From: Frigoriflavimonas asaccharolytica
GTDB lineage: Bacteria; Bacteroidota; Bacteroidia; Flavobacteriales; Weeksellaceae
DNA: 33,181 bases
Direction: 5' to 3'
NCBI RefSeq assembly: GCF_013294015.1
Contig: NZ_JABSNO010000018.1
Span: 35,613 to 68,793 of the forward strand
This document shows positions 8,267-31,737 of this stretch, one piece after another (the stretch's first letter is position 1; the number at the start of each line of letters is the position of its first letter). The translations under genes and the position numbers were made by a program. Under the pieces are notes generated by a model that did not search any database, was not told the origin of the DNA, and worked only from the letters and a program-made list of their open reading frames with translations.

Positions 8267-9325
8267 TTAATTTGCAGGATCATCTCCTGTGAAATCGTCA
8301 TTTATTTCTGCGGTAATATCATCTTTGCTCTCTGGAAAGGCAATTGATACAAGCACGGAAATGATCAAAACTCCACCCACAATTCCTAAAGATATAGGAG
8401 TTGGAATGTGAAACCAAGGAGATATTAACATTTTTACACCTATAAAACTTAATACCACTGCCAAACCATAAGGTAGTTTGCTGAACATGTGGATAAAATT
8501 TGCTAATAAAAAATACAAAGCTCTTAATCCTAAAATCGCGAAAATATTTGATGTATACAAAATGAAAGGATCTTTGGATATTGCAAATATTGCGGGGATA
8601 GAATCTACCGCAAACAAAACGTCTGTGAATTCTATAACTGCCACTACAACAAGCAACGGCGTTGCCATTCTTATTCCATTCTGGATGGTAAAAAACTTGT
8701 CTCCGTCGTAATTATCAGAAACTTTGTAGAATTTTTTCACCAATTTTGCTCCCGCTGTTTGGCTAAAATCTTCATCTTCGTCTTCATCTCCTCCACCCCA
8801 AGAATTTATCCCAGCGTAGACCAAAAACAATCCAAATAAAGTCATTACTATATTAATTTTTACTGGTGTACCAAATACCACCATCTCTGGCAAATAAGTA
8901 AGATTGATGATTCCTACTCCTGCAAAAATAAATATAGCTCTAAATATTAAAGCTCCAATAATTCCCCAAAAAAGAACTTTATGATGCAGATGTTTTGGCA
9001 CTTTGAAGAAACTAAACACCAATATAAACACAAATAAATTGTCTACAGATAGGGCTTTTTCTATCCAATAAGCTGCCTGAAATTGTGTGAATTTTTCTAT
9101 CGCTACATCATGACCACCCATATCTTGATTGAAAATCCAATAGACCACTCCAGAAAACGCCATGGAAAGTGAAATCCAGATGATGCTCCAAATGGTAGCC
9201 TCTTTGGAAGATACTACATGTGCTTTTTTATTAAAAATTCCAAGATCCAAAAGGAGCATGACGAGTATTACTACAGCAAATCCTATGATTAGACCTGGGT
9301 GTAATTCCAAAATGTTTTGATCCAT
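8267..9325 (-). CDS. terC: TerC-family integral membrane protein (Alx-like)
   Basis: This is a 352-residue inner-membrane protein with about eight or nine TM helices. TerC hallmarks are visible: LLLDLGIFNKKAHVVSSKEA near the N-terminus, AAYWIEKALSVDNLFVFILV, and VIEFTDVLFAVDSIPAIFAI, each carrying conserved Asp/Glu within TM helices. A cytoplasmic acidic run GGGDEDEDEDF (about residues 177-187) is followed by a basic segment. TerC/Alx proteins are linked to metal (especially Mn2+) export and to metalation of secreted proteins, and TerC partners the other Ter proteins. It is 23 bases downstream of the kinase gene on the same strand, so it is likely the last gene of the ter cluster. The protein could also serve as a general Mn2+ exporter unrelated to the rest. 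Confidence 0.9.
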   Translation of the reverse strand: MDQNILELHPGLIIGFAVVILVMLLLDLGIFNKKAHVVSSKEATIWSIIWISLSMAFSGVVYWIFNQDMGGHDVAIEKFTQFQAAYWIEKALSVDNLFVFILVFSFFKVPKHLHHKVLFWGIIGALIFRAIFIFAGVGIINLTYLPEMVVFGTPVKINIVMTLFGLFLVYAGINSWGGGDEDEDEDFSQTAGAKLVKKFYKVSDNYDGDKFFTIQNGIRMATPLLVVVAVIEFTDVLFAVDSIPAIFAISKDPFILYTSNIFAILGLRALYFLLANFIHMFSKLPYGLAVVLSFIGVKMLISPWFHIPTPISLGIVGGVLIISVLVSIAFPESKDDITAEINDDFTGDDPAN

Positions 9326-9348: not shown

Positions 9349-10857
9349 TTATTTGTTTGCCAAAGTTATATAAATTATTCGGCCTCCGTCTTCATCAGAG
9401 AGCATTATTTTTTTTCCATCTGTTAATTCTACCATCGTATTGATGGGCACCATTTTATCTTCCGTAATGTCTTTCATATTGGGCAAAGATTGATTGACTA
9501 AGACCCATTTATTTTGATAAAATGTGAAATAACCAACAGGTTTTTTGTCCAGTGCAGTTAAACTTTCATTTCTAATAACTTTTTTAGAAACGTGCCATTT
9601 AAAAAGATACTGGTTGTGATATACCATCAAACGATGATTTTCTGGTTTCCACACTCCCTCACTTTGCTTGTAATATAAATCTATCACAGGTAGTGTTCCT
9701 CTGTGCGGAGTACCACAAAAAGGGCATTTTGGTTTGGAACTATTATCAAAAACATACCATTTTTCGTCGCAATTTACATTGCTGCAAGGTTGTATGAGAT
9801 CTACTGTTTTCAACAAAGCAGTTTCCCACTCATTGGCAATTGGTCGCAACATTGGGTTGTGCAGACCATCTACGAATGCTCTTTTGAATAATTCTTGCAA
9901 ATATGGACCTGTAACAGAATACGGAATTTTGGTAGGATCTCCCCAAGTTAAATTCCATTTTTTGAGATGATCAATTTTCACTCTATTGGTAGAATCTGTC
10001 GGGTGCTCTACAAAAATTGCTTTTTCACCCATAGAAAGGACTTCATCTTTTTCAGATTCCAAATCCCACACTTTTCCACCACGCAAAGGATGCCTCCTCA
10101 ATAAATACATATAAATAAGCACTGCCAAAGCGTGCAAATCTGTTTTTTGATTGGGCAAAACTCGGTTGGGATCTGTGATAGCAAGATGTTTGGTTTTTAA
10201 AACTTCTGGCGCGATGAAATCTGCAGTACCTATTACTTCTGGTGCAAATTTCCCCGGCACAACCAAACCATCTAAATCTATAAGATTGGCAGATTTGGTC
10301 ACAGGATCTATCAATACATTATTATAAGATAAATCTGAATGCGCCAATCCCATTTGGTGCATTTTTTTTATGCCTCTAGAAACGTTGATGGAAATTTGAA
10401 AATAACTTAACCAATCTCCTAATTCGGATTTATCAATTGCCAAAGGATATTCCTTATTTCTAAAAGAAGGTGTGGTAAACCATTTGCCTTTTTTCTCGGC
10501 ACCTTTTATGGTTTCATTGGCGATATATCCTTTTTTAAAGAAAAATTTAGAATCATAAATTGGAACAACTACACCTGTTTTTCCATTTTTTTCTACTGCA
10601 TCATAAGGCCATCTAAAAATATCATCTAAATAATAATCAGCATTATTACCTTTTTTAATATTATCTAGATATAGCGTTACAATAATTTTTATTCTTTCCT
10701 TTTGATTAAAATCCAAAGTATCACGGAAAAAAGCGACTACATATTTCCTATTTGGCGCAAAATAAACGTCTTTCATTCCGCCCTTTATAGGATTTCCATC
10801 GTCTACATATTCGTATGATTTGGTAGAATCTATTATTGAATTCACTTTATTAATCAT
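9349..10857 (-). CDS. divergent Ser/Thr protein kinase of the TerY-P triad
   Basis: The 502-residue protein has a eukaryotic-like kinase domain at about residues 20-330. The Gly-rich loop is GGMKDVYFAPN, the catalytic loop is HSDLSYNN (His173, Asp175, Asn180) and the metal-binding motif is IDLDG (residues 193-197), followed by GTADFIAPEVL. The beta-3 segment reads YVVAFFR, so the usual VAIK lysine is not obvious. A CxxxxC...CxxC zinc ribbon (CSNVNC, CPFCG) follows, and the C-terminal ~100 residues look FHA-like (WVLVNQ, VELTDGKKIML, GGRIIYITL). It sits 4 bases from the PP2C gene, itself 1 base from a TerY gene. This triad is a known Ter-linked signalling module; the kinase probably phosphorylates TerY, TerD or itself. 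Substrates are not known. Confidence 0.85.
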   Translation of the reverse strand: MINKVNSIIDSTKSYEYVDDGNPIKGGMKDVYFAPNRKYVVAFFRDTLDFNQKERIKIIVTLYLDNIKKGNNADYYLDDIFRWPYDAVEKNGKTGVVVPIYDSKFFFKKGYIANETIKGAEKKGKWFTTPSFRNKEYPLAIDKSELGDWLSYFQISINVSRGIKKMHQMGLAHSDLSYNNVLIDPVTKSANLIDLDGLVVPGKFAPEVIGTADFIAPEVLKTKHLAITDPNRVLPNQKTDLHALAVLIYMYLLRRHPLRGGKVWDLESEKDEVLSMGEKAIFVEHPTDSTNRVKIDHLKKWNLTWGDPTKIPYSVTGPYLQELFKRAFVDGLHNPMLRPIANEWETALLKTVDLIQPCSNVNCDEKWYVFDNSSKPKCPFCGTPHRGTLPVIDLYYKQSEGVWKPENHRLMVYHNQYLFKWHVSKKVIRNESLTALDKKPVGYFTFYQNKWVLVNQSLPNMKDITEDKMVPINTMVELTDGKKIMLSDEDGGRIIYITLANK

Positions 10858-10861
10858 ACTT

Positions 10862-12316
10862 TTAATAGATTATAGCTAAAGTTCTATCGTCGTGGTTTCC
10901 TTTGCTCCAAAAATCCATCCAATCAGAAAGTTGATTTTCGATATTGCTATCTTCTACAAAATCTACTTTTTTGAAATCCTCGTTTTCGCCACTTAAATCT
11001 CGCAGAAAGTCATTCCAACTTTCTATATTTTCTAGTTTACTTTCCACTACAAATTTTGGATCATAAATACCATCTGTCATCAAAATTAATTTTGAAAAAT
11101 CTGGAAAACAATTTAAGCCAAAACGATTCACCATATCTGGACGACCGAAAATTTCTGGCATCGTCATAAATCTAGTTGCGCCACTACTTTCTCCAACATC
11201 TAAGAAGTTGAGCAAATGTACATCAGTTTGGTCTTTGTTAATAACATTTATGGGACAATCTCCTACTCCAAAAGATAGAACAACATAGCCAAATTGGAAT
11301 TTTTTTATTAAAGTAAAAATCAATGTTGTATGAATATCTTTCAGCGTAATTTCTTCACTTTCGGCAAATTTGAGGAGTTCATTTTGCAGATTTTTTATAT
11401 TTTTATAAAGAACATTTACGATTAAATTCTTACTTTTTAGTTTTAAATCTTCCGTTTGTTCTATAGAGATTTTCGAATCTGATTTGTTTTCCTCGTCGAT
11501 TGAAAGTATTTCAATTTCTGGTAATACTTCCGCATTTGTAGCAAAATATTGAGTAACTTCTTGAGATAAAGTATTTAAAATTTCTTCATTATTAAAACTT
11601 TCTGCTATCCAATCGCAAGCGAATTTAGAACCTGCTCTCGCAAATTCTGCAGATCCTGCTCCATCTGCAACAGCAACTATCGCCCAATCATTTGGTAGGT
11701 TTTTTACCAAAAAATCATCATCTCGGAAAGTAGCGTTGTGCGCATGAGAACGACCTCTTTTGGAAGAAACAACAATTTTTTTATCTAAAAAAGTAGATTT
11801 ATAATTGATATTTTCTACTTTAAAAAATCTACTATCTGCAGGACTGGGCTTATTTAACCATAGATCTTTTGGATCTGCATTCACGATGAATGAAGCCACT
11901 TTAATATCTGTTTCTAAATTTTCGTCATTTTTATTAAAAAATACGATTTGAATATCAATGGTTTCTGCAACAGTTGGAACACCATAAATACGGGCCTTTT
12001 CGGCATCAAATTGCAAACCGACAGATTCTAAATTATTTATTTCTTGAATTCTGATATTGGGAAATAAGGATAAATCAAATGTAAATTGATATTCTTTTTT
12101 TGCGTTTGCATTAGGAATAATAATGTGAGCTTCTTTGAATTCTTCTTTTTCTTTATGCATAGTAAATAATTCTATCATGGAAATATTCAGTTCTTTGATG
12201 GTTTTAGAAATATCGATTAATTTTTGATTATCTGCTAATTTTGACAGCGTACTTTCTACCGCTTTGCTGTTTTTTATTTCAAATTCTGTAAGTAATTTCC
12301 TTAAATAATCTTCCAT
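10862..12316 (-). CDS. PP2C-family protein phosphatase of the TerY-P triad
   Basis: The 484-residue protein has a PP2C phosphatase domain from about residue 175 to the end. Metal-binding and catalytic motifs are AVADGAGSAEFA (Asp about 218), VLSFGVGDCPI (about 351), MTDGIYDPKF (about 414) and NHDDRTLAIIY at the C-terminus. The N-terminal ~60 residues are helical; residues about 70-165 look like a beta-sandwich of the cadherin/Ig type (FDAEKARIYGVPTVAETIDI). This extra domain may bind a partner. The enzyme would dephosphorylate what the adjacent kinase phosphorylates. It is encoded 1 base after the TerY gene and 4 bases before the kinase gene, so the three are translationally linked. Confidence 0.88.
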   Translation of the reverse strand: MEDYLRKLLTEFEIKNSKAVESTLSKLADNQKLIDISKTIKELNISMIELFTMHKEKEEFKEAHIIIPNANAKKEYQFTFDLSLFPNIRIQEINNLESVGLQFDAEKARIYGVPTVAETIDIQIVFFNKNDENLETDIKVASFIVNADPKDLWLNKPSPADSRFFKVENINYKSTFLDKKIVVSSKRGRSHAHNATFRDDDFLVKNLPNDWAIVAVADGAGSAEFARAGSKFACDWIAESFNNEEILNTLSQEVTQYFATNAEVLPEIEILSIDEENKSDSKISIEQTEDLKLKSKNLIVNVLYKNIKNLQNELLKFAESEEITLKDIHTTLIFTLIKKFQFGYVVLSFGVGDCPINVINKDQTDVHLLNFLDVGESSGATRFMTMPEIFGRPDMVNRFGLNCFPDFSKLILMTDGIYDPKFVVESKLENIESWNDFLRDLSGENEDFKKVDFVEDSNIENQLSDWMDFWSKGNHDDRTLAIIY

Positions 12317-12317
12317 A

Positions 12318-13361
12318 TTAGCCTAAAGTTCTATTAATATCAAAACCACCTTCTGCCATTCCGTAATGTCCTTCATTTCCACACCATGGGCATTTTGCTG
12401 CGCCTTCGCCAGAAATGCAGTGAATTCCTCCACATTGGCAAGTTGCTAATGCGACACCATTGCCGCAAGATGGGCAACTTGGGTTTCCTTGAATTTCTTC
12501 ACTAGAAATTTTTGATCCACTTATACCGCCATCAGAATATTCTTGGTAGGCATTTTCATCAATTTTGTATGCACCTTCTATTTTATAGTAACGCGTATCA
12601 AAACCTGGAACACGGGATTCTTGCAGCGTTTTTTTAAACTTCATCAGATATAATTTGTCATTGGTAGTGCATTTTCCGTTCAGCACTACAAAATTATTAT
12701 CTGGCAGAGAATGTTTTTTGGTTACATCTATTTCTTCTACTACTTTAGAGTCCATTTTGCTTAAATTGATGCCGTCGGAATTGCCCGTATCAATTTTTTC
12801 GCTCGTTAATTTTATAGAAGCTGTTACCCATTTAAAGAATTCTTTGTAGGAATTGGCATCTGTATTATTGAATAATAAAACCTGATCTGTAAGACGACCT
12901 AGAAGATTAATATTGGTATTATCTCCTACAGAAATTACGATGAGATTGCATTTTTTGCGGTAATTTTCATTCCAGCGTTGGATTGCATTTTCTGTATCGT
13001 CTGTGGGAATTCCATCTGTGAAAAGGAAAACGATGGGTTTCCAATCTCCTTTCCTTTCGTAGGTGGTTTTCACGATGTCTTTGTCTAAGGAATTCATCAA
13101 TTGCTCCAAACCTTTTGAGAGCGAAGTTCCGCTTCCGATGGGAATTTTTGGAGGATAAAATGAGATTACATCTTGCAACGGCATGATGACTTTACTTTTG
13201 CCTGCAAACCCAATGATGGAAATCCAAACAGTTTCCAAAGCGTAAGGATCTGTTTTTAATTCTTTGATAATCGTTGCAATACCATCTTGCACTTGCTCGA
13301 TTGGTTCTCCCACCATTGATTCTGAAACATCTAGTAGGAAATATATGGGTAGTCTTCTCAT
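12318..13361 (-). CDS. terY: TerY-type VWA protein with C-terminal zinc fingers
   Basis: The N-terminal ~200 residues form a von Willebrand A domain. The MIDAS metal site has DVSES (DxSxS), a Thr in GSGTSLSKGL and an Asp in FTDGIPTDD. The C-terminal part (about residues 280-340) holds a cysteine-rich zinc-ribbon set: CPSCG, CQC, HC and CPWCG. This matches the TerY-C domain of longer TerY proteins (347 residues here). VWA proteins of Ter systems are thought to be adaptors that bring kinase and phosphatase to targets. It is the first gene of the tight TerY-phosphatase-kinase triad, 56 bases downstream of another VWA gene. Cytoplasmic; no signal peptide. Confidence 0.88.
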   Translation of the reverse strand: MRRLPIYFLLDVSESMVGEPIEQVQDGIATIIKELKTDPYALETVWISIIGFAGKSKVIMPLQDVISFYPPKIPIGSGTSLSKGLEQLMNSLDKDIVKTTYERKGDWKPIVFLFTDGIPTDDTENAIQRWNENYRKKCNLIVISVGDNTNINLLGRLTDQVLLFNNTDANSYKEFFKWVTASIKLTSEKIDTGNSDGINLSKMDSKVVEEIDVTKKHSLPDNNFVVLNGKCTTNDKLYLMKFKKTLQESRVPGFDTRYYKIEGAYKIDENAYQEYSDGGISGSKISSEEIQGNPSCPSCGNGVALATCQCGGIHCISGEGAAKCPWCGNEGHYGMAEGGFDINRTLG

Positions 13362-13417
13362 TTGGATTTTTAGCTTAAATTAATTAAAAAATGAAGAATC
13401 GAAATATTTATAAATTT

Positions 13418-14056
13418 TTACACGACTATATTTAATTCCGTTGGTGGTGGAGGTAAAGTCATGGATTCGCCGGTTCCTTGGGATTTGCTGCCCATTTCTA
13501 TGGAAGAACTTACCCATTGGAAAAATGTGGCTAAAGTAGAAGGATCTGTTGCATCAAGCTTTACCACATGATCTGTGAGTTCCAGCAAAAAGCTTTCTTC
13601 CGCTTTTGGTCCAGCTGCACAAGCGACGATGGCTCCAAAATCTAAAGCTTTTATTTTCGGGAGCATTTGTCTGTATTTTTGAATATCCGAAGGTTTGCCG
13701 TCTGTGAAAATAAATAAAAGTGGTTTCCAATCTCCTTTTCTATCCATAGATCCTTTTATTAATTCTCTATTCACAACATCATGCAACATTTCTAAAGCTT
13801 GGCCAGTATGCGTTGGTCCGCTTTCTGGGCAAGTTATTTCTATAGGATGATAACTTGCTAAATCTACCAAAGGAATTATATTTTTCACATCTCTATCAAA
13901 TGTAATTGCAGAAATATGCAAAGAATCCATTGCTTGCGGATCTTGGCGAAGCATAGAAATTAAGCCATTAAAGCCATTGTTGAGTGCCGCAATTCCTTCT
14001 CCTCGCATTGAGCCAGAAGTATCTAGTAAAAAATATGCGAGTAGTCTTCTATTCAT
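13418..14056 (-). CDS. terY: TerY-like VWA-domain protein
   Basis: This 212-residue single-domain VWA protein has the same length as plasmid TerY. MIDAS residues are seen in LLDTSGSMRGEG, GPTHTGQALEM and FTDGKPSD. The tail ends in a short Pro-rich stretch, TLPPPPTELNIVV. The next VWA protein has a matching tail (LPPPPSELVIVS), so the two are recent paralogues, though their middle parts differ. The proline-rich tail may be a docking peptide. It lies 4 bases after the sister gene and 56 bases before the longer TerY. The function is inferred as a metal-dependent adaptor for the Ter complex. Confidence 0.85.
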   Translation of the reverse strand: MNRRLLAYFLLDTSGSMRGEGIAALNNGFNGLISMLRQDPQAMDSLHISAITFDRDVKNIIPLVDLASYHPIEITCPESGPTHTGQALEMLHDVVNRELIKGSMDRKGDWKPLLFIFTDGKPSDIQKYRQMLPKIKALDFGAIVACAAGPKAEESFLLELTDHVVKLDATDPSTLATFFQWVSSSIEMGSKSQGTGESMTLPPPPTELNIVV

Positions 14057-14060
14057 AATC

Positions 14061-14699
14061 TTACGAAACTATTACCAATTCTGAAGGTGGTGGTGGAAGT
14101 TGATCCAATCCGGCTAATTCTATCCCCGTTTCTTCCACTTTTGTAGATGTGGTAGAAATGGAATCTGTAACCCATTGGAAAAATTTAGAAATACTTTCTG
14201 AGTCTGCATTGTCCAATCTCACCGTTGCACCGCAAATTTGTTTTAAAATAGCATCATCTGCTCCTTGTCCTGCTGCGCAACCTACAATTAGTCCTTTATT
14301 TACATTTTTTAGTTTGTTAAAACCAATTTGCCAATCGTCTGTAGGAACGCCATCTGTCATGATGAAGGTTAGTGGTTTCCAATCTCCTTTTGTATCTGCA
14401 GTAGTTTTGGTAATTTCGGTTGCCATTTTATCTGCCAAAAGAGAAAGTGCTGCACCTAAAGCTGTTGTACTAGCTGCTTTAATATCTACCATTTGAAACG
14501 ACGCAAGGTCTGTGAGCGGTACTATTTGTTTTGCTTCACTATCAAAAGTAATGATGCTTACATAAGCTGTTTCTAGAGCTTGCGGATTTTGACGCAAAGA
14601 GTGCATCATCATTTGTACTCCGTTTTTCACGGCTTCTATTGGTTCGCCAGTCATAGAACCAGATGTGTCTAATAATAAATATACGGGTAATCTTCTCAT
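14061..14699 (-). CDS. terY: TerY-like VWA-domain protein
   Basis: This 212-residue VWA protein has intact MIDAS motifs: LLDTSGSMTGEP, ASTTALGAAL and IMTDGVPTDDW. The C-terminus carries the LPPPPSELVIVS tail shared with the next gene product. The opening MRRLPVYLLLDTSGSM is nearly identical to that of the zinc-finger TerY (MRRLPIYFLLDVSESM), which supports tandem duplication. It begins 6 bases after a TerD gene on the same strand. It likely acts in the cytoplasm as an adaptor with TerD and the phosphorylation triad. Confidence 0.87.
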   Translation of the reverse strand: MRRLPVYLLLDTSGSMTGEPIEAVKNGVQMMMHSLRQNPQALETAYVSIITFDSEAKQIVPLTDLASFQMVDIKAASTTALGAALSLLADKMATEITKTTADTKGDWKPLTFIMTDGVPTDDWQIGFNKLKNVNKGLIVGCAAGQGADDAILKQICGATVRLDNADSESISKFFQWVTDSISTTSTKVEETGIELAGLDQLPPPPSELVIVS

Positions 14700-14705
14700 T
14701 TTTTG

Positions 14706-15386
14706 CTATTTATAATTTTGCGTAATCTTTTGAATGGTTTGGATAAACATATTGTCTTCTGTTGCATCTCCGATAGCATCAAATTTCCATTCTCCGTTTT
14801 TGCGGTACAATTTCCCTAAAATTAAAGCTCTTTTTCCGCGATAAGATGCATCTGTAACGATATCGTAGTTTGAAAAAACACTATTCACTTTGGTAGGCGT
14901 TCCTTCATACATTCTTATTTTGGCAAAAGGAATTTGGGCAAAATCAAAATTTTGGCCTTGATTAAGATAGATATTCAAGAAGAAATAAATTTTATCTACA
15001 TCTGGTTTTACTTGATTGAGATTTACGGTGATAATTTCATTATCCAAACCATCGTCTCCGCCTACATCTCCTTGTCTATCGTCTCCACTATGACGCAAAC
15101 CTCCATCGTTTGAAGATAATTTGCCAAGCGGATAATTATTTTGAGCTAACCAAGCGTTGTATTCTGGGGAATATATCCAATCGATCATTTCGCCGTTTTG
15201 GTTGAGCATGATGCAACTCAAATCTAAATCTACATCTTCCACCACTTTTTTTGTTCCGAAACCGAAAAGTCCTGGTTTTGTAGTTTCTATTGCTCCCCAA
15301 TTTACTCCCACACAAAAATTGGTGAGCGCTTCTCCGGTAGATTTTCTTAAATCAATTTTTTGACCTTTTTGTAAGTTTATAGACAT
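14706..15386 (-). CDS. TerD-domain protein, TerZ-like
   Basis: This 226-residue TerD-fold protein starts with MSINLQKGQKIDL, the signature opening of the family, then VNWGAIE and VDLDLSCIML. The acidic, calcium-binding loop is RHSGDDRQGD...DGLDNEI. FDAIGDATEDN near the end closes the domain. Compared with classic TerD, the RHSGDD and 'NxYxNQGQxF' features are closer to TerZ. It has an insertion of about 20 residues (DWIYSPEYNAWLAQNNYPL) that its neighbour at 15761-16372 lacks. TerD proteins bind Ca2+ and are thought to assemble at the inner membrane with TerC. A 374-base gap separates it from the upstream TerD gene, so it may have its own promoter. Confidence 0.88.
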   Translation of the reverse strand: MSINLQKGQKIDLRKSTGEALTNFCVGVNWGAIETTKPGLFGFGTKKVVEDVDLDLSCIMLNQNGEMIDWIYSPEYNAWLAQNNYPLGKLSSNDGGLRHSGDDRQGDVGGDDGLDNEIITVNLNQVKPDVDKIYFFLNIYLNQGQNFDFAQIPFAKIRMYEGTPTKVNSVFSNYDIVTDASYRGKRALILGKLYRKNGEWKFDAIGDATEDNMFIQTIQKITQNYK

Positions 15387-15760
15387 GGTTTTTTATTTTT
15401 AATTTTATTAATGAAAATTTTTTTGAAGCCAAAGTTTTAAACACAACAGGAACCAAGGCATGAGCTTAAAAAATTTGTCTTAAAGATAAAACAAGATTTA
15501 ACACGCTTATTTTCAGTTCACAACAAATTGAGACTCCTTAAAGTTTTATTCCTATTAGTTCAAATTTATAGTTTTAAATGAAACTGCTAAACTTCGGTAA
15601 ATGGTTTTTAATACTATTTAAACTTGCTTAAATATATTTTTCAGCTATGCTCTTGCAGCCCGACTTGAGTGAAGCTCTTTTTATGATTTTTGAGTAAAAA
15701 ATTATAAAAAAGCGGGAACGGAAGGCGGATTAAGCTGCCCAAATAAATTGAGAAATTGGT
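15387..15760. other. 374-base non-coding gap between two terD-type genes
   Basis: No protein-coding frame of interest. It holds a compact structured element at 15655-15740 (see separate entry). It also has a TAAATTTG sequence on the minus strand (15561-15568), which could be a -7 box for the downstream terD-type gene, although no -33 element is seen at the right distance. The rest is AT-rich sequence in which I see no further structure. Confidence 0.6.
15655..15740 (+). ncRNA. compact structured GCAGCCCG...GCTGCCC element (copy B)
   Basis: The 86-base element begins GCAGCCCGACTTGAGTGA and ends AAGGCGGATTAAGCTGCCC. GCAGC and GCTGC are complementary and can close the element. Inside is a long AT hairpin: CTTTTTATGATTTTT (15677-15691) pairs with AAAAAATTATAAAAAAG (15696-15712 region) around GAGTA. 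A longer relative lies at 21181-21406. The strand is assigned by the orientation of the conserved ends, not by transcription evidence; the flanking genes are on the minus strand. It may be a non-coding RNA motif of flavobacteria (possibly the Rfam family called Flavo-1), which a covariance search would decide. Confidence 0.4.
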
Positions 15761-16372
15761 TTATAAATAGTTATTTTTCACGGTTTCTATAGTTTGCTCT
15801 AATTTTTTGTCTTTGGTAGGTTCTCCAATCGCATTAAATTTCCACTCGCCATTTTTTTTGTAAAAAACGCCCATTACCATTGCTACGTGACCAGAAAAAT
15901 TTTCGCCTTTTGCAATATTATACGTTGCAAAAACTTCTGAAACGCGAGAAGGAGTGCCTTCGTAGATGCGGATTGAAGCGAAAGGAATGGTGCCAAAATC
16001 TTGACCTTGATAACTATTAAGTACAAATGCAACGGAAGAAACATTTGGATTAAGACGAGAAAAATCTAAAGTGATAATCTCATTATCTAGACCATCATCT
16101 CCCGACATATCTCCGGTAAGATCGTCTCCGCTGTGTTTTATAGAACCATCTTTTGATAATAATTGGCCGAAATAAACGACGTCTACAGAATTTTTGTTTT
16201 CATCAAATAATAGGCAACTTGCATCTAAATCTACGGCTTGTTTGGAAGTTCCGCCGAGCCAGCCTTTTTTCTCGATTGCGCCCCAGTTTACACCTACGCA
16301 AATATTTTGCAGCGTGCTTCCGTTATCTTTCTTCAGATTTATTCTTTGTCCTTTTTGTAAATTAATAGCCAT
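15761..16372 (-). CDS. TerD-domain protein, TerZ-like
   Basis: The 203-residue protein opens with MAINLQKGQRINLKK and VNWGAIEKKGWLGG, followed by VDLDASCLLFDENKN. The acidic loop is KHSGDDLTGDMSGDDGLDNE, and VLNSYQGQDFGTIPFASIRI follows; these features match TerZ more than TerD. KFNAIGEPTKDKKLEQTI closes it. It would bind Ca2+ through the Asp-rich loop, like other TerD proteins. It is 2 bases downstream of the unknown 322-residue gene, so those two are probably co-translated. The stop is followed by a 374-base gap containing a structured element. Confidence 0.88.
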   Translation of the reverse strand: MAINLQKGQRINLKKDNGSTLQNICVGVNWGAIEKKGWLGGTSKQAVDLDASCLLFDENKNSVDVVYFGQLLSKDGSIKHSGDDLTGDMSGDDGLDNEIITLDFSRLNPNVSSVAFVLNSYQGQDFGTIPFASIRIYEGTPSRVSEVFATYNIAKGENFSGHVAMVMGVFYKKNGEWKFNAIGEPTKDKKLEQTIETVKNNYL

Positions 16373-16374
16373 TT

Positions 16375-17343
16375 TTATTGTATTTTGTTGTTTAAATTAA
16401 GGTTGAGCATCGAGTTTAAAATATTCATTTCTTCGTCTATGCTCAAGATTTGATTAAGAACTTCTTGATTATCAAGATTTTCTTTGTATTTTTCTAATAG
16501 TGAAATAACTTCTTCTGGAAGTTCGTTTTTTAGTTGCTCTGCTTTAAGATTTAACGCTGTATTTCTGCTTGATAAATCTTGCACCAAGGTATTGTTTGAA
16601 GATGTATTTTCTGATCTATTTAGTTCTGAAATTTTGGCTTCATCTACCAAATAAAATTCATTGATTTGCAAATTCCAAATAAATTCTTCGTCTGTTTTGA
16701 TGATTCTAAATAATTCAAATATCTGATTACTAGAATTATACCCACAAACAAATCTAATTTTAAACTGGTTGGTGTTTAGTTTTCCTAGTAATTTTTTTTC
16801 TACATCAATATTTTCAAACTCGTAATATTTGGTGTTTGGTTGGCTTAATAGATTTTCTATTTTGCTTGTTTTTCTATAATAATCTATTGCATAATTATTG
16901 GCTAAATTCCTGATTTTAGCGAAATCTAATGCTACTCTAGTTCCTATTAAATTGCTGTAAATATTGCTTAAAAATTCTGAAACGAGGGCATTTTGATATT
17001 TCCTGTCTGTGTTGAAATTTCTGCCATTATTTTCTTGTCTTAAAAATTTTTCTATATACTCCTCATTTGCATCTATCTCTTTATAAACCGTAAGAATATT
17101 GGCCTCCTTTTGTTTTTTAATTTTATCCAAAAGAACTATCAAGCTATCTGTGTATTGCAGATGAAATAGTTCTAACTTATTAATATCTAATCCATTAATA
17201 GATTTATCTGTAAAATAGGATTGTATAATCTCTGTTTTAATGATGATATTGATAAGATTTGGCTGATCAAAAAACTTACTTAAAAGCTTTAGTTTTTGTA
17301 TCCTTTTCTTACTTTTTTTTAAAATATCTTGCTCTTGGTCCAA
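16375..17343 (-). CDS. unrecognised ter-cluster protein, helical
   Basis: I do not recognise this 322-residue protein. It is hydrophilic, rich in Lys, Asn, Leu, Ile and Glu, with no signal peptide or TM segment. The N-terminal ~110 residues (from MDQEQDILKKSKKRIQ) and residues about 245-320 look alpha-helical, perhaps coiled coil. The middle (about 165-240) contains beta-like segments such as KYYEFENIDV, FKIRFVCGYN and FIWNLQINEFYLVDE. No catalytic pattern stands out. It lies between telA (6 bases upstream) and a terD-type gene (2 bases downstream), so it is almost surely co-expressed with them. It may be a TelA partner or a cluster-specific adaptor; that is inference from position only. Confidence 0.65.
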   Translation of the reverse strand: MDQEQDILKKSKKRIQKLKLLSKFFDQPNLINIIIKTEIIQSYFTDKSINGLDINKLELFHLQYTDSLIVLLDKIKKQKEANILTVYKEIDANEEYIEKFLRQENNGRNFNTDRKYQNALVSEFLSNIYSNLIGTRVALDFAKIRNLANNYAIDYYRKTSKIENLLSQPNTKYYEFENIDVEKKLLGKLNTNQFKIRFVCGYNSSNQIFELFRIIKTDEEFIWNLQINEFYLVDEAKISELNRSENTSSNNTLVQDLSSRNTALNLKAEQLKNELPEEVISLLEKYKENLDNQEVLNQILSIDEEMNILNSMLNLNLNNKIQ

Positions 17344-17349
17344 TTTATA

Positions 17350-18429
17350 TTAAGAGTTTTGCATTTGATTTTTCAATGTTTGTTCTAGGTTTTTCAATTC
17401 GCCATCTAAGGCTATTCTGTTTTGTGCACCTTGCTGTTGTATTTGTTTTACTTCATTTAAAGTGTTGATCAACGAACTTGTAGTTTCTCTTAAAGTTTCT
17501 ACAGAAACGATGGTTTGCTCGTTTGCTCGTGCTACATTTACAGTATTTTGCTGCAATCTTTGCGCATTTTTTCGCAAAATTTCTTCTGTTGTAGAAGATA
17601 CTTTATTTTGGATTTCAATATTTTGCTGTTGTCTGTGCATTGCAACGGCTAATGTTAATTGATTTTTCCAAACTGGCAGCGTTGTTGTCAAAATTGTCTG
17701 CGCTTTTTCTGCGATAGAAATATTGTTGGATTGTATTAACCTGATTTGTGGCAAAGATTGCAAAATAATGAAACGAACCACCTTTAGATCTGCTAATCTT
17801 CTATCCAATCTGGCAATAAAATCTCGCTTATCAGAAATTTGATAATCTTGATAATTGGCTGCATTGGCTTCCATTTGCACCAGTTCTTCGGTAGATTGTT
17901 GATGCTTTAAACTTCCAGCGATAATGTAATCTTCAATTTTTTTCACAGAATCTATATTTCCGGTAAAAATAGTCTGAAGCACAGCATTATCTTTTGTAGA
18001 ATTGATGATTCCTGCATTTACTTTATTAGAAATATCCGATATATTGGTTACAATTTTATCATATTTCACAAATAAAGTTTCTATAGAAGTGACCATTTTC
18101 CCAAAGAAAGGTATTTTTTTCAGGAATTTTTTCATGGAACTTCCTTCCAATTCATCTACATCTACGTAATTCAATTCTACCAGAAGTTTATTGATCAATT
18201 CTCCTACTTCTCCAGAATTAGATTTCCGTACATTATTCAAAAAACTATCACTTTGGCTTGCTAAAGAATTTTGCAAATCTGAGCCAAAATTTATAATAGA
18301 ATTAGGATTTTGCTCATCTATCGTAACTGCAATAGAATCGTATTTTTGTAAATCTACGGATTCTATTTTAGCAAGATCTACGTTTCCGCTTTTATCAATA
18401 GCGGTATTGGTATTTTGTTGTAATTCCAT
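17350..18429 (-). CDS. telA: TelA-family toxic anion resistance protein
   Basis: This is a 359-residue all-helical protein of the TelA (KlaA/YceH) family. Seen are FLKKIPFFGKMVTSIETLFVKYDKIVTNISDISNK, typical of the family's second helix pair, the FIARLDRRLADLKVVRFIILQSLPQIRLIQSNN region, and TLPVWKNQLTLAVAMHRQQQNIEIQNKVSSTTEEILRKNA near the C-terminus, all in the usual order. These proteins contribute to tellurite or antimicrobial-peptide tolerance by an unknown route and are commonly linked to terD genes. There is no signal or TM segment. It begins 1 base after a terD stop, and the unknown 322-residue gene follows at 6 bases. Confidence 0.88.
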   Translation of the reverse strand: MELQQNTNTAIDKSGNVDLAKIESVDLQKYDSIAVTIDEQNPNSIINFGSDLQNSLASQSDSFLNNVRKSNSGEVGELINKLLVELNYVDVDELEGSSMKKFLKKIPFFGKMVTSIETLFVKYDKIVTNISDISNKVNAGIINSTKDNAVLQTIFTGNIDSVKKIEDYIIAGSLKHQQSTEELVQMEANAANYQDYQISDKRDFIARLDRRLADLKVVRFIILQSLPQIRLIQSNNISIAEKAQTILTTTLPVWKNQLTLAVAMHRQQQNIEIQNKVSSTTEEILRKNAQRLQQNTVNVARANEQTIVSVETLRETTSSLINTLNEVKQIQQQGAQNRIALDGELKNLEQTLKNQMQNS

Positions 18430-18430
18430 T

Positions 18431-18985
18431 TTAGTTGTATAAATCTAAGTATTTCTGCAATCCTTCTCTTTGTCCGTTTCCTACGGCTTCAAATTTCCAT
18501 TCGCCGTTTCTTTCATAAATTCTACCAAATTCTACGGCAGTTTCTATAGAAAAATCTTCGTCTAGCTCATATTTCAAAATTTCTTCTTTGGTATCTGTAT
18601 TGAAAATTCTGATGAAAGAATTTCTCACCTGTCCAAAATTTTGGCTTCGTGAATCTGCTTCGTGAATCGTCACTACTACGATAATTTCTTTCACACGACT
18701 ATCAATTCCGGTAAGGTCTATTTTTATTTGCTCATCGTCTCCATCTCCATCTCCCGTAAGATTGTCTCCTGTATGCGTGATGGATTTATCTGGCGTTTGC
18801 AAATTATTAAAAAACACAAAAAATTTATCTTCTACCAATTTTTTGTTTTCATTTAAACCAAAAATAGAAGCATCTAGATCGAATTGTCCTCCGGTAGAAG
18901 AACTATTTGCATCCCAACCTAAACCGATGGTGAATTTTGGTGCGTTGATGTTTTCTCTTTGTCCTTTTTGTAAGTTGATTGCCAT
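18431..18985 (-). CDS. terD: TerD-family protein
   Basis: The 184-residue protein is a classic TerD. It opens MAINLQKGQRENINAPKF, then TIGLGWDANSSS, FDLDASIFGLNENKK and the Ca2+-binding acidic loop THTGDNLTGDGDGDDEQI. The C-terminal half has FGQVRNSFIRIFN and KYELDEDFSIETAVEFGRIY, shared almost word for word with the TerD at 21457. The protein is cytoplasmic, and probably associates with TerC or the membrane. Its start lies inside the end of the phosphoribosyltransferase gene (67-base overlap), so the two genes use overlapping reading frames. telA follows at 1 base. Confidence 0.92.
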   Translation of the reverse strand: MAINLQKGQRENINAPKFTIGLGWDANSSSTGGQFDLDASIFGLNENKKLVEDKFFVFFNNLQTPDKSITHTGDNLTGDGDGDDEQIKIDLTGIDSRVKEIIVVVTIHEADSRSQNFGQVRNSFIRIFNTDTKEEILKYELDEDFSIETAVEFGRIYERNGEWKFEAVGNGQREGLQKYLDLYN

Positions 18986-19794
18986 TGTATTTTATTTTTT
19001 AATTGATTGATGTTTGTTTGATATTCTGGAACTTGATGATAATTATTGCTAATTGCCAATCCCAGCATTTCTTCTAGTTTATTCTTTGAAATGTGATTAT
19101 AAAGATAGTCAAAATCTTTTTCTTCCATCAGAAGAATATATTTTGTAATTCTGGTATTGAATGCAAAATGTTTTCCATTAATTACTTCTACTAAATCTTG
19201 GGTGGTTTTTACTTTGAAATAGTTGTAGTGATTTTCAATTTTTGGGTGAATATTTTTGTTCATTAATTCTGCGAAATACACGAAAAAAAATTCTCCTTTT
19301 ACGCCATATTCTTTCAAAATTCTATCTACTGTATTTTCATGGCTGCCCGTGATTTTTATATCATCCAGAAAAATGCAGAATTTACCTTCTACAAAATGCT
19401 TGTCTATATAATATGTATCATTAGAAATTAAATTAATTCTCTCTTCATAGCTCATATTGCCGTAATCTTCTACATAAGTTTGTTGGCGATAAATTTTACC
19501 TTCTATACAAGCCGATTTTCCATTCGTAAAAAGAAAATAATTGAGCTCTTCTTTAAAATAATGGCACAAAAAATTGGACGCTGTAGGAATGCTGTAATAC
19601 GGACTTGGAAAGAGCATAATCTCTTCTTGCGCCAATATTTCTTCTTTAAAATCTGCAATAAAACCCTCAAAAAGGTGTTTTGCGAATTTTCTGGCAAAAT
19701 AAGTATCTCCAAATTTAAATTGGCTGTATTCTGCTTCATCAAAAGGGCAATTTTCTTGCGTTTCTATTTGATGTAAACTGTATCTTTTTCTCAT
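18919..19794 (-). CDS. phosphoribosyltransferase-fold protein of the ter cluster
   Basis: This 291-residue protein has the PRPP-binding motif FCIFLDDIKITGSHENT (about residues 141-157): two acidic residues followed by a TGS loop, as in type I phosphoribosyltransferases. Phosphoribosyltransferases paired with HAD enzymes are known in Ter gene clusters and are proposed to make a nucleotide-like metabolite. The rest (residues 1-130, and 200-260) is less familiar. The last ~22 codons overlap the terD start and are Lys/Thr/Gln-rich, so the C-terminal tail may not be conserved. It overlaps the HAD gene by 4 bases (ATGA), so translation is coupled. Catalysis is inferred; the base or substrate is unknown. 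Confidence 0.75.
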   Translation of the reverse strand: MRKRYSLHQIETQENCPFDEAEYSQFKFGDTYFARKFAKHLFEGFIADFKEEILAQEEIMLFPSPYYSIPTASNFLCHYFKEELNYFLFTNGKSACIEGKIYRQQTYVEDYGNMSYEERINLISNDTYYIDKHFVEGKFCIFLDDIKITGSHENTVDRILKEYGVKGEFFFVYFAELMNKNIHPKIENHYNYFKVKTTQDLVEVINGKHFAFNTRITKYILLMEEKDFDYLYNHISKNKLEEMLGLAISNNYHQVPEYQTNINQLKNKIQWQSTYKKDKEKTSTHQNSPSV

Positions 19795-20465
19795 TGTTTT
19801 TCTACTAGTTGGGCATTAAAGCCAAAGTTTTTTGCTCCTTGGAAATCTGCAAAAGCATTATCTCCAATATGTAAAATTTCATTTTTTTCGACCTGTTTTA
19901 TTTTTTTAACGGATTGATGAACCAAATCAAATATATTCGGGTTGGGTTTAGAAATTTTTACCTCATCTGAAAAAATTTTAAAAGAAAAGTAGGAACTTAT
20001 TCCTAATTTCTGCAACATTTTTTCCAAAGTTTCTCCACGTATGAAAGCGGTATTGCTAAGAATACTACTGGTTTTTCCTTCATTTTTAATCCTGATCAGT
20101 TGGTCTTCGATATTATCCCAAAGAATAACAGGCAGGTTTTCTAAAAATAATTGATCCATTTCCTGAAAATATAAATTCAATTGAACATTAGTAACATCTT
20201 CGAATTTTTTTCCTAAAGCATTTAAAATCAATAAATAAGCGGTTTCCCTTTCGATATGCCGTCCTGTTTTCTCGGAAATTTTGTTGAGTAAAACGTCATA
20301 ATATCTTACAGCTTTCCGAACTTCATCAAAACTTGCATCTATAGAAAAATGATCTTTCAATAATTGATCTCTTTTTACTTTAAAATCTGGATTAGATTTA
20401 ATGATGGTCAACCATAAATCAAAAGAAAAGTGCTGGTATTTTGCGATTTCTATTTCTATATTCAC
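19791..20465 (-). CDS. HAD-superfamily protein of the ter cluster
   Basis: The 224-residue protein shows all four HAD motifs. Motif I is FSFDLWLTI (nucleophile Asp16), motif II is SSILSNTAFI, motif III is KISKPNPNIFD and motif IV is LHIGDNAFADFQGAKNFGF. The residue two after the nucleophile is Trp18 in place of the Asp that acts as acid/base in phosphatases, a difference resembling L-2-haloacid dehalogenases, which have Tyr there. A helical cap is expected between motifs I and II. The start codon is GTG at 20465; no later ATG precedes motif I. It is 7 bases after terA and overlaps the phosphoribosyltransferase gene by 4 bases. It probably acts on the product or substrate of that enzyme. Confidence 0.82.
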   Translation of the reverse strand: MNIEIEIAKYQHFSFDLWLTIIKSNPDFKVKRDQLLKDHFSIDASFDEVRKAVRYYDVLLNKISEKTGRHIERETAYLLILNALGKKFEDVTNVQLNLYFQEMDQLFLENLPVILWDNIEDQLIRIKNEGKTSSILSNTAFIRGETLEKMLQKLGISSYFSFKIFSDEVKISKPNPNIFDLVHQSVKKIKQVEKNEILHIGDNAFADFQGAKNFGFNAQLVEKQ

Positions 20466-20472
20466 AAAAAAC

Positions 20473-21132
20473 TTATTTAGAGCCAGTTGCCCATTTCATA
20501 CCCCAATTGTACATTTTATCACAATCACTGTGCGCATTGTGAAAAGAAACCAATTTTTTCACCTGCAAATTGGTCGGCGAAAATATGATTTCTGCTATCG
20601 CGCAAAATTTTCTAGCATCTGTTTGCTCACCCATTTTTACTTCTATATCTGGGTTTCCTTCTACCTTTATGGTTACAACGCCATTAGTTTCTGCCCATTT
20701 TGCAACGCCATCATAGATAAAACAATAGATTGTCATTCTTTTGATGCCAGAAACTCCATTTGGATTAACGATAATATCTTCGCCAGAACCTGCAGCTGCT
20801 CCACGATCGTCTCCTGTATGCCAAATCCACGGGGAATCTGTAAATCTGCCTTGTCTGGTTTTTTGACTTCTACTTCCGCCATTTCCTTTAGAAAATTGCA
20901 CTCCATCGATAACGTTTTTTTCACCGTTATTTAGTTCATAAAAACAGCCGAGATCTAAATCTATTTCTTGGTTTCCACCTAAAAGACTGCTAAAAAAACT
21001 CTTTTTTGCTTTCCCTTGAGACCAATTGAGATTAATAACAATTTCGCTGGAAGCTGAACGGTTCTTGGTAAGATCTATAGAAGCCGTGTCGCCAGCTTTT
21101 TCTATGGTGACTTTTTGTAAATTAATTGCCAT
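20473..21132 (-). CDS. terA: TerA-like protein (TerD superfamily)
   Basis: This 219-residue protein resembles TerA. After MAINLQKVTIEKAGDTASI it has IDLDLGCFYELNNGEKNVIDG and SPWIWHTGDDRGAAAGSGED, where TerD would have the acid-rich loop. The C-terminal half, IYCFIYDGVAKWAETNGVV...CAIAEIIF...SFHNAHSDCDKMYNWGMKW, matches the TerA ending closely. TerA proteins share the TerD fold but lack some calcium ligands. The seven-residue opening MAINLQK is the same as in the terD neighbours, suggesting shared ancestry or gene conversion. The HAD gene follows at 7 bases. A 324-base gap with a structured element lies upstream. Confidence 0.85.
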   Translation of the reverse strand: MAINLQKVTIEKAGDTASIDLTKNRSASSEIVINLNWSQGKAKKSFFSSLLGGNQEIDLDLGCFYELNNGEKNVIDGVQFSKGNGGSRSQKTRQGRFTDSPWIWHTGDDRGAAAGSGEDIIVNPNGVSGIKRMTIYCFIYDGVAKWAETNGVVTIKVEGNPDIEVKMGEQTDARKFCAIAEIIFSPTNLQVKKLVSFHNAHSDCDKMYNWGMKWATGSK

Positions 21133-21456
21133 GAATTTATTTTATTCGTTGTAGATAATTTTGATGTGATACGGAATTTTGCAGCCCGATTTGATGATTA
21201 TTTTTAAATTTGAATCATCGAACCTCTTCGTTGGGTTTGAGTGGAAATCCTTTTGTGTGGCGAAGCAAAACATAAAGCTAGGTTCAAAATATTTATTATT
21301 AATATTCAAATCATCATAACTCGTTCCTTGTTTTGAGAACGAAAGGCATAAACGAAATTAAAGGAAAGGCTTTAATTGAAGTTTACAAACGAAGTTCATG
21401 CTGCCCAAAATAGTATTCATCTATAAAATAATTTAAATAATATATTTTGTTTTTAG
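21133..21456. other. 324-base non-coding gap in the ter cluster
   Basis: Non-coding between two minus-strand ter genes. Most of it is filled by the structured element at 21181-21406 (separate entry). I see no convincing promoter box or ORF. Confidence 0.6.
21181..21406 (+). ncRNA. expanded structured GCAGCCCG...GCTGCCC element (copy A)
   Basis: The 226-base element begins GCAGCCCGATTTGATGATT and ends ATGCTGCCC, with GCAGC/GCTGC able to close it as in copy B. It contains three perfect hairpins: GATGATT/AATCATC (21193-21219), TCGTTC/GAACGA (21321-21342) and AATTAAAG/CTTTAATT (21356-21377). Shared with copy B are GCAGCCCGA at the start, TTGAGTG near 21240, GAACGAAAGGC (B: GAACGGAAGGC) and GCTGCCCAAA. 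The orientation is that of copy B, opposite to the genes. Likely a structured RNA or a mobile-type repeat; no expression evidence. Confidence 0.4.
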
Positions 21457-22038
21457 CTATTTGATAATAGTTCCGCTGTAATATTTTTCTAAAAAGAAAC
21501 CTAAATCTGCTTTATACCCAATTCCTGATGCTTCAAATTTCCAGCTGCCATTTCTTTTGTACAATCTGCCAAATTCTACACCTGTTTCTATAGAAAAATC
21601 TTCATCTAGTTCGTATTTTGCTATTTCTTCATTGTTGGCATTATCTACAATTCTGATATAGGAATTTCTTACCTGACCGAAATTTTGTTTTCTGGCTTCA
21701 AAGTCTGCAATTGTTACCACGAAAAGAATTTCTTCTACTTTGGCATCTACTCTTGCAAGATCTACAATGATGGCTTCATCATCGTCTCCATCGCTGCTAT
21801 TTCCGTCGGGATCGTCGCCTGTGTGCGTTAAAGCTCCATCTGGTGAAACTAAATTATTGTAAAAAATAAAAGAATCTTCGCCTAATAATTTTCTATTAGC
21901 GTCTATCATTATTGCAGATGCATCTAAATCGAAACCTTCAGCACCAGTATTTCCTTCACGAGGATCCCAACCAAGACCGATGGTCAATTTGGAAAGTCCG
22001 ATGTCTATTTTTTGTCCTTTTTGTAAATTAATTGCCAT
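21457..22038 (-). CDS. terD: TerD-family protein
   Basis: This 193-residue classic TerD protein starts MAINLQKGQKIDIGLSKL, continues TIGLGWDPREGNTG and GFDLDASAIMIDANRK, and has the Asp-rich calcium loop GDDPDGNSSDGDDDEA. The end, FGQVRNSYIRIVDN and KYELDEDFSIETGVEFGRLY, is a near copy of the TerD at 18431-18985. The length equals that of TerD/TerE/TerZ in plasmid systems. It is the first ter gene in transcription order and has 399 bases of non-coding sequence upstream, so the cluster's main promoter may lie there. A 324-base gap follows. Confidence 0.92.
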   Translation of the reverse strand: MAINLQKGQKIDIGLSKLTIGLGWDPREGNTGAEGFDLDASAIMIDANRKLLGEDSFIFYNNLVSPDGALTHTGDDPDGNSSDGDDDEAIIVDLARVDAKVEEILFVVTIADFEARKQNFGQVRNSYIRIVDNANNEEIAKYELDEDFSIETGVEFGRLYKRNGSWKFEASGIGYKADLGFFLEKYYSGTIIK

Positions 22039-22437: not shown

Positions 22438-22791
22438 CTAAATTTTTGCTTTGTCTTGTATTTTATCAAATTGTTTGCGCAGTGCTTTTCTATTTGAAAT
22501 AGTGAAAGCAGCAATTACAAAATACATTACAACAAAAATAATTAACATTTTCAGACCTGGAACTTCCATGAAAAAAAGCAAAATTTGTGTAACAAAACCA
22601 AGTAACCAACCAATCATTATAATGACTGTATTTACGAAACTAAAAGGTGAAATTTTCGTGGCGACTACACCAAAAATTTTGAAGAATAAAGAACTTATTA
22701 ATAATAAAATTAACCATCCAAATCCTTGAAAGCCCGCAAACATAACGAGATACTCAGGATTGCTATCTATGGTTTTTAAAAATTCATACAT
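22438..22791 (-). CDS. small three-TM membrane protein, unknown
   Basis: This 117-residue protein has three hydrophobic segments (about residues 20-43, 52-74 and 78-96), followed by a basic tail SNRKALRKQFDKIQDKAKI that probably lies in the cytoplasm. No family is recognised. It is 2 bases after lemA and is thus likely translated with it. It may be an accessory membrane factor for the LemA/GIDE pair. Confidence 0.7.
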   Translation of the reverse strand: MYEFLKTIDSNPEYLVMFAGFQGFGWLILLLISSLFFKIFGVVATKISPFSFVNTVIIMIGWLLGFVTQILLFFMEVPGLKMLIIFVVMYFVIAAFTISNRKALRKQFDKIQDKAKI

Positions 22792-22793
22792 AA

Positions 22794-23366
22794 TTAAAAC
22801 ACAATTCCATTATAGTTTTTCTCTTCTGTAGAAACTTGCAACAAAGATTTTGCTTGATAATTTATCACTTTTGCTACTATTAAATCTGGAAATTCAGCAA
22901 TTCCAATATTGTACATATTCACACTTTCATTGTAAAATTCTCGACGATCTGCAATAGCATCTTCTATCTGAGAAACTCTGGATTGAAGCAATTGTAAACT
23001 TTGATTTGATTTGAGATCAGGATAATTTTCTGCAACTGCAAAGATGCTTTTTATTTGATTCTGCAAATCGTTGGATAGAGCAACCTTTTCTTCTGGTGAA
23101 TTACTTTTCAAAAATTGTGTACGAAGTTCTGTAAGTTTCGTAAGCATAGATTCTTCAAAATGCATCGATTCTTTTACTACTTTTATAAGATCTGGAATTT
23201 CATCTGCACGCTGTTTTAATATAATATCTATGTTGCCAAAAGATTTTGCGACGTTATTTTTTAACATTACCAATCTATTGTAAGCAGAGATTCCTGTATT
23301 TGCGAGACCAATTACAATTAAAACGACTATTACAATAGCTACCAAAAAATACATATTTAATTCCAT
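22794..23366 (-). CDS. lemA: LemA-family protein
   Basis: The 190-residue protein has an N-terminal TM anchor (residues about 6-22) followed by the LemA helical domain: AYNRLVMLKNNVAKSFGNIDIILKQRADEIPDLI, the signature, then AVAENYPDLKSNQSLQLLQ and DAIADRREFYNESVNMYNIGI, then a tail ending YNGIVF. LemA proteins have a long extracytoplasmic or cytoplasmic helical domain of unknown function, and are often found next to GIDE-domain membrane proteins in bacteria. Here it lies 23 bases downstream of such a gene. Confidence 0.92.
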   Translation of the reverse strand: MELNMYFLVAIVIVVLIVIGLANTGISAYNRLVMLKNNVAKSFGNIDIILKQRADEIPDLIKVVKESMHFEESMLTKLTELRTQFLKSNSPEEKVALSNDLQNQIKSIFAVAENYPDLKSNQSLQLLQSRVSQIEDAIADRREFYNESVNMYNIGIAEFPDLIVAKVINYQAKSLLQVSTEEKNYNGIVF

Positions 23367-23389
23367 TATTTTCTTCTTCTTTTATTAAA

Positions 23390-26745: not shown

Positions 26746-26749
26746 AATA

Positions 26750-30202: not shown

Positions 30203-30206
30203 AATT

Positions 30207-31724: not shown

Positions 31725-31737
31725 AATAATTTAAATT

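Follow-up and report, generated by a model that had tools for sequence, protein, structure and literature searches.

A Ter locus of Frigoriflavimonas asaccharolytica that combines a TelA/phosphoribosyltransferase core with a separable TerY-P triad

Ter systems are widespread, and their natural role is still debated. Passages of a jumbo-phage review propose that the phosphoribosyltransferase (PRTase) and HAD proteins of such systems make a nucleotide-like signal that TerD proteins sense, with TelA in sub-membrane structures and TerC in the membrane (PMC7824862). The TerY-P triad is described in part of PMC11090510 as VWA, PP2C and a kinase with a zinc ribbon, and is hypothesised there to be a metal-sensing phosphorylation switch. 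For a cluster related to that of plasmid R478, the gene names terY3Y2XY1W and terZABCDEF are given in a section of PMC11003894, which also associates ter genes with better survival and less oxidative damage, while part of PMC8115787 ties them to many stresses and to a role in gut fitness. Here, we analyzed a 33,181-nucleotide stretch of the Frigoriflavimonas asaccharolytica genome (3.43 Mb; contig NZ_JABSNO010000018.1, C18), hereafter the window, which contains a large Ter gene cluster. We found that this cluster is a composite of two separable known Ter modules, which stand side by side in some relatives and far apart in others.

The genes are transcribed from position 22038 to 8267 in the order TerD4, TerA, HAD, PRTase_3, TerD3, TelA, a protein without known family (hereafter the TelA partner), TerD2, TerD1, VWA3, VWA2, VWA1-TerY_C, PP2C, kinase, and TerC. 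The features of the cluster are as follows.

8267..9325, minus strand: TerC membrane protein (module 1; Pfam TerC, 160.9 bits; 38% identity to R478 TerC)
9349..10857, minus strand: Ser/Thr protein kinase with a four-Cys (zinc-ribbon-like) stretch and a C-terminal beta domain (module 2; Pfam Pkinase, 42 bits)
10862..12316, minus strand: PP2C phosphatase with an N-terminal extension (module 2; Pfam PP2C_2, 94.4 bits)
12318..13361, minus strand: VWA1 with a TerY_C metal-binding domain (module 2; Pfam TerY_C, 136 bits, and VWA, 47 bits; MIDAS DVSES)
13418..14056, minus strand: VWA2 (module 2; Pfam VWA, 38.9 bits; MIDAS DTSGS)
14061..14699, minus strand: VWA3 (module 2; Pfam VWA, 49.7 bits; MIDAS DTSGS)
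14706..15386, minus strand: TerD1 (module 2; Pfam TerD, 115.8 bits)
15387..15760, no strand: 374-bp spacer where the two modules meet, partly dispersed repeats (repeat matches in its own genome)
15761..16372, minus strand: TerD2 (module 1; Pfam TerD, 141.1 bits)
16375..17343, minus strand: TelA partner, an uncharacterised protein of 322 residues with a TTG start (module 1; no family match)
17350..18429, minus strand: TelA (module 1; Pfam TelA, 290.6 bits)
18431..18985, minus strand: TerD3 (module 1; Pfam TerD, 236.7 bits)
18919..19794, minus strand: PRTase_3 phosphoribosyltransferase (module 1; Pfam PRTase_3, 276.2 bits; FLDDIKITG motif)
19791..20465, minus strand: HAD-fold protein (module 1; Pfam HAD_2, 50.7 bits; motif I D-x-W)
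20473..21132, minus strand: TerA-like TerD-fold protein (Pfam TerD, 20.0 bits, below the cut-off; 36% identity to R478 TerA)
21133..21456, no strand: 324-bp spacer, partly dispersed repeats (repeat matches in its own genome)
21457..22038, minus strand: TerD4 (Pfam TerD, 220.2 bits; accompanies module 2 in many relatives)

The separation of the two modules was evident in 296 sampled genomes of the window's family, of which 146 carried the partner gene, 94 carried TerY_C, and 91 carried both. The two markers lay within 20 kb of each other in only 6 of these 91 genomes and apart in 85, either about 150 kb or more away on one contig (23 genomes) or on other contigs (62 genomes, a class in which adjacency across contig ends is possible). 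At the TelA locus itself, TerY-P genes were found in 5 of 20 fetched relatives, placed between TerD2 and terC; among the relatives, TerD1 was diverged in L036 and TerA was missing in L040. We also examined 80 named loci, which are the best 80 of 123 confirmed ones and partly come from the same genomes as the family sample. TerY_C was present in the examined flanks of 15 of them, including loci of Flavobacterium, Pedobacter, Capnocytophaga, Myroides, Empedobacter, and one Chryseobacterium, and the combined loci of other families showed an order similar to that of the window. In a sample of 395 genomes across the phylum, the partner was detected in 15 and TerY_C in 10 (both in 9, partner only in 6, TerY_C only in 1, neither in 379); as these genomes are related, the Fisher value for co-occurrence is descriptive only. 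Four genomes of one other-family genus had both markers, 3.6 to 5.4 kb apart. The original prediction, made from the letters of the window, had treated all the genes as a single system. This reading is partly supported: the scatter within the family (markers apart in 85 of 91 genomes; triad in 5 of 20 TelA loci) speaks against it, and the combined loci (15 of 80, other families included) together with the partner in 9 of the 10 TerY_C genomes of the phylum sample speak for it. One simple history would start from an old combined locus that was later divided in most Chryseobacterium genomes, with the core retained more frequently than the triad, a direction that we infer.

In all 20 fetched relatives, which were chosen for having the partner gene, HAD, PRTase, TerD3, TelA, the partner, TerD2, and terC occurred in constant relative order, and the conservation of this seven-gene order is more than chance. 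Exactly these seven genes were found in 62 of the 80 named loci, and the combination of HAD, PRTase, TelA, partner, and terC in 77, among them L156 with a terC match of only 24%. Compared with the seven-gene locus of Chryseobacterium relatives, the window has all seven genes in the same relative order, but with the TerY-P block inserted between TerD2 and terC and with TerD4 and TerA in front. For module 2, we fetched 20 TerY_C loci of the family that were chosen for lying away from the partner gene. These consisted of TerD4 and a second TerD followed by VWA genes, PP2C, and kinase, with TerD4 as the first Ter gene in every case and one upstream chromosomal neighbor gene common to 16; TelA, partner, HAD, and PRTase were absent from all 20 fetched stretches. 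Twelve of the 20 yielded no VWA3, indicating that three VWA genes are not a fixed number, and some TerY-P loci had a terC of their own (L071, L075). In four TerY_C genomes of the family without the partner (G056, G114, G279, G600), no TelA match was detected either, showing that the triad can stand alone. Relative to the triad as outlined in PMC11090510, the window contains all three parts with complete motifs and a four-Cys stretch in the kinase, and differs in having three VWA genes and a join to the TelA/PRTase module.

Among the closest known counterparts of the cluster is the ter region of the IncHI2 plasmid R478 (NC_005211, 61238-81187), in which a block of VWA, TerD, VWA, TerY_C, PP2C, and kinase keeps the VWA-to-kinase relative order of the window, and which likewise has five TerD-family genes and terC. 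Identities between window and R478 proteins were 50% for the kinase, 61% for VWA3, 47% for VWA2, 42% for VWA1, and 30% for PP2C, and 51% for TerD3 besides the 36% of TerA and 38% of TerC. R478 differed in having TerB, TerW, StiP/HpcH-type neighbors, and, following terE, a fourth VWA gene, whereas the TelA, partner, PRTase, and HAD of the window had no match in the R478 ter region at E 1e-3. A Klebsiella plasmid carried the same VWA, TerD, VWA, TerY_C, PP2C, and kinase block together with terB. A plasmid search with the kinase returned 2330 records, mostly enterobacterial, of which 2327 had less than 60% identity. In a tree of 56 VWA rows, each VWA gene formed one group (support 76/96 for VWA1, 100/100 for VWA2, and 97/88 for VWA3); VWA1 joined the R478 TerY_C protein (100/100) and VWA2 its own R478 counterpart (100/99), while the link of VWA3 to R478 fell in an open fork. 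The program warned of long branches, and the paralogue tree covers the VWA genes only. The proposed amplification of VWA and TerD paralogues was rejected as a feature of this lineage, since the R478 ter region has a comparable set, with a triad block of three VWA genes and five TerD-fold genes, and the tree gives one group per gene. The term "full" Ter cluster also proved too strong: no TerB family match was found among the cluster proteins in Pfam scans, whereas R478 and the Klebsiella plasmid carry terB, and without terB we do not class the cluster as a terZABCDEF operon of the R478 type. Jumbo-phage Ter systems, as presented in passages of PMC7824862, have PRTase, HAD, TerD, TerC, and TelA parts in common with the window. 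PHROGs contains close families for TelA, PRTase, and TerD3, whereas the TelA partner had no PHROGs match and no relative in viral contigs.

At the level of single proteins, the parts known from Ter systems were borne out by their domains. All parts had been placed correctly, although the stretch described as twelve minus-strand genes plus terC holds 14, with terC just outside it at 8267-9325. TerD-fold proteins and TerC are encoded in one gene cluster, as expected of a Ter stress-response system, and the VWA, PP2C, and kinase genes follow one another with 1 and 4 bp between them, as in a TerY-P triad. Intergenic gaps across the cluster ranged from -67 to 56 bp, except for the 374- and 324-bp spacers. 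The four proteins TerD1 to TerD4 exceeded the Pfam TerD cut-off of 25.3 bits and were the only such matches in the genome; the fifth predicted TerD-fold protein, TerA, scored below it and was accepted through its 36% identity to R478 TerA over 217 residues (E 5e-41). All five contain D-L-D, a PRPP-type motif is present in PRTase_3, and the MIDAS motif is complete in VWA1, VWA2, and VWA3. Kinase residues H173, D175, N180, and D194 and cysteines C358, C363, C378, and C381 were invariant in an alignment of 13 rows, from which two of 14 relatives (L151 and L154) were omitted. The metal-site residues of PP2C (D200, D218, G219, G352, D353, D415, D476, and D477) were invariant in 10 aligned rows covering 9 of the 14 relatives. 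The kinase fold was recovered by VIA (best Z 13.0, root-mean-square deviation (rmsd) 5.3, 264 aligned). No zinc-ribbon model matched the kinase in the Pfam scan. The beta domain, which follows the four-Cys stretch, was predicted with a local confidence (pLDDT) of about 72-95 (mean of the whole kinase model 61.3), and the fold search gave it no identity, its lists being filled by kinase domain matches. The module names and the labels "zinc ribbon", MIDAS, and "TerX" are used in their customary sense.

The TelA partner is the one undescribed part of the cluster. Its gene lies directly after TelA in all 80 named loci, and within the family the partner (146 genomes) and PRTase_3 above the cut-off (144 genomes) occur in sets that differ by two (G149 and G174). 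The protein had no match in Pfam, NCBIfam, PADLOC, or PHROGs. Comparisons with solved folds gave at best E 0.065 (PDB profile), E 0.52 (Foldseek), and Z 7.8 with VIA (rmsd 10.9, 126 aligned), and absence from such result lists does not exclude a known fold. The AlphaFold2 model (mean pLDDT 79.2; predicted template modeling score 0.55) shows a small beta domain (about residues 173-232) surrounded by long helices, and the C-terminal tail is conserved but of low confidence in the predicted structure. Among the papers listed, none dealt with the partner or with this Ter locus in Chryseobacterium or Flavobacterium, and passages of PMC11962581 contained nothing on this locus. We tentatively suggest, as a possibility short of a probable one, that the partner founds an undescribed family, a Bacteroidota TelA partner that would build or gate a sub-membrane coiled-coil scaffold. 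The TerY-P triad might then be a plug-in phospho-regulator of this scaffold, encoded at the same locus in some lineages and at a distance in most Chryseobacterium-type genomes that have the triad. Present in half of the sampled family genomes, the partner is a tractable uncharacterised protein. Its start codon in the window is TTG (17341-17343), with the next Met codon near residue 306. In 69 of the 80 named loci, the first possible start was GTG or TTG, and in 36 a Met codon within residues 2-20 could be the true start.

Two further features of the locus concern the HAD protein and the spacers. The usual HAD motif I is D-x-D. In all 98 HAD genes found in 100 loci, it reads F-D-[LV]-W-[LM]-T, that is, D-x-W. 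Both spacers are about 320 bp longer than the gaps in close relatives (an overlap or 34-47 bp between TerD2 and an immediately following TerD1, and 4-9 bp where TerD4 precedes TerA) and contain dispersed intergenic repeats with GCAGCCCGA and CTGCCCAAA motifs. The 374-bp spacer had 39 further matches in its own genome (40 scored of 189 candidates), and the 324-bp spacer had 22 (40 scored of 119 candidates). A regular expression for a Bacteroidota-type promoter had no coding-strand match in the two long spacers or before TerD4, in a scan without shuffle control.

The genomes directly display which genes are present, their motifs and order, how far the modules separate or occur together, and that the partner is paired with TelA. 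In the scheme that follows, we infer every biochemical step, the signal, the trigger, and the action of module 2 on module 1. On balance, the cluster is probably a composite Ter stress-response locus, in which a nucleotide-like signal made by PRTase and HAD acts on a TerD/TelA/TerC membrane assembly and the TerY-P triad serves as a detachable phospho-switch. In module 1 (HAD, PRTase, TerD3, TelA, partner, TerD2, and TerC), the PRTase/HAD pair would make the signal, and TerD proteins, by binding it, Ca2+, or both, would rearrange an assembly formed on the membrane side by TelA, partner, and TerC, which may in addition transport Mn2+ or another metal. In module 2, which would comprise TerD4, TerA, TerD1, the three VWA proteins, PP2C, and kinase, the VWA domains may bring the Ser/Thr kinase and the opposing phosphatase to TerD-type targets and thereby set the strength of the response. 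The trigger could be envelope or oxidative stress, or phage. That tellurite resistance need not be the natural role had been argued for this cluster from the outset, a view shared by part of PMC8115787. Several observations weigh against this scheme. In the Capnocytophaga locus L080, TelA, partner, and triad occur without HAD or PRTase in the examined stretch, indicating that the signal step is not universal; the missing second Asp in HAD motif I weakens the inference of a phosphatase; and the R478 PRTase and HAD-type neighbor are unmatched to those of the window at E 1e-3. The partner without TerY_C in 55 of 146 family genomes indicates that the core does not require the triad, the partner-like match in G149 is weak and partial (28%) with no Ter genes around it, and the two repeat-filled spacers may divide the transcript at the window locus. 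The natural split within one family, where the core occurs with or without the triad and the two lie together or apart, offers a clean genetic setting for asking what the triad adds to the TerD/TelA/TerC core.

Other explanations have to be weighed against this composite stress-response locus. A dedicated anti-phage system, with the TerY-P triad as the sensor of infection and the TerD/TelA/TerC assembly as the part that prevents entry or arrests the cell, would fit reports that TerY-P-like modules protect against phages (parts of PMC7699616 and PMC10889362), the proposal in the jumbo-phage review that Ter systems block entry (PMC7824862), and a link of the R478 cluster to phage inhibition, cited in passages of PMC8115787 and PMC11003894; in addition, SIR2 and Piwi genes are located about 8 kb from the version on a Hymenobacter plasmid. 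We nevertheless regard it as rather unlikely. Defence-island neighbors, which the original prediction had suggested looking for, appeared only as weak, generic PADLOC matches (kinase to 10 families, PRTase to 1, and a DUF4280 protein to 2). Antiphage TerY-P kinases are described in part of PMC11090510 with an OB-fold, whereas the kinase here has a four-Cys stretch and a beta domain without identified fold, and the chromosomal neighbor shared by 16 of the 20 distant TerY-P loci suggests a stable resident rather than a shuttling defence gene. Phage defence may still be a role of the locus, and the content of the window adds nothing to the case for it.

A locus devoted mainly to metal homeostasis, in which TerC would export Mn2+ or a similar ion for the metalation of envelope enzymes and the remaining genes would tune this export, is suggested by the Mn2+ export of the TerC relatives MeeF and MeeY in Bacillus (passages of PMC12096827), by TerY_C being a metal-binding domain family by name, and by a Klebsiella terC paper whose title gives tellurite and zinc resistance. 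This seems improbable, as it leaves the PRTase, the HAD protein, TelA, and the kinase/phosphatase pair unexplained. We attach equally little probability to two functionally unrelated systems that came to be adjacent by chance in the window genome. Their separation in 85 of 91 family genomes with both markers, the TerD genes in each module and the own terC of some TerY-P loci, and the repeat-filled spacer at the join would all agree with such an accident, but it would not account for the loci of Flavobacterium, Pedobacter, Capnocytophaga, Myroides, and Empedobacter in which the modules are joined similarly, nor for the partner in 9 of 10 TerY_C genomes of the phylum sample.

A phage-borne element was considered separately and is not supported, as the partner had no relative in plasmids or in viral contigs (600 pattern matches, none a relative); the TerY_C protein had three partial phage matches (E 5e-13 to 1e-9). 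Counting against this rejection, PHROGs gave strong matches at E 1e-54 for TelA, 1e-42 for PRTase, and 1e-45 for TerD3, indicating that phages do carry such genes.

The Hymenobacter monticola plasmid (L175; 11187-20269 and 28464-35229) carries a Bacteroidota version in which genes for PRTase, HAD, PP2C, and kinase occur with three TerD genes, two VWA genes, and a DUF475 gene. The DUF475 gene is weakly TerC-like (23%, E 5e-11), and a DNA methyltransferase gene accompanies the SIR2 and Piwi genes about 8 kb from the Ter genes. In the window, a LemA protein (141.8 bits) and two neighbors without known family are encoded immediately upstream of the cluster in the same orientation (22438-24574); none of the 20 fetched relatives showed LemA next to its cluster. 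Further on, a minus-strand gene row (25447-33000) resembles, by eye, a secreted-effector cassette; among its products are the DUF4280 protein (67.7 bits) and a protein of 1150 residues that had no Pfam match. On the other side, positions 5572-6309 encode a protein with an LCIB-type beta carbonic anhydrase domain (252.6 bits), a family named after algal limiting-CO2-inducible proteins.

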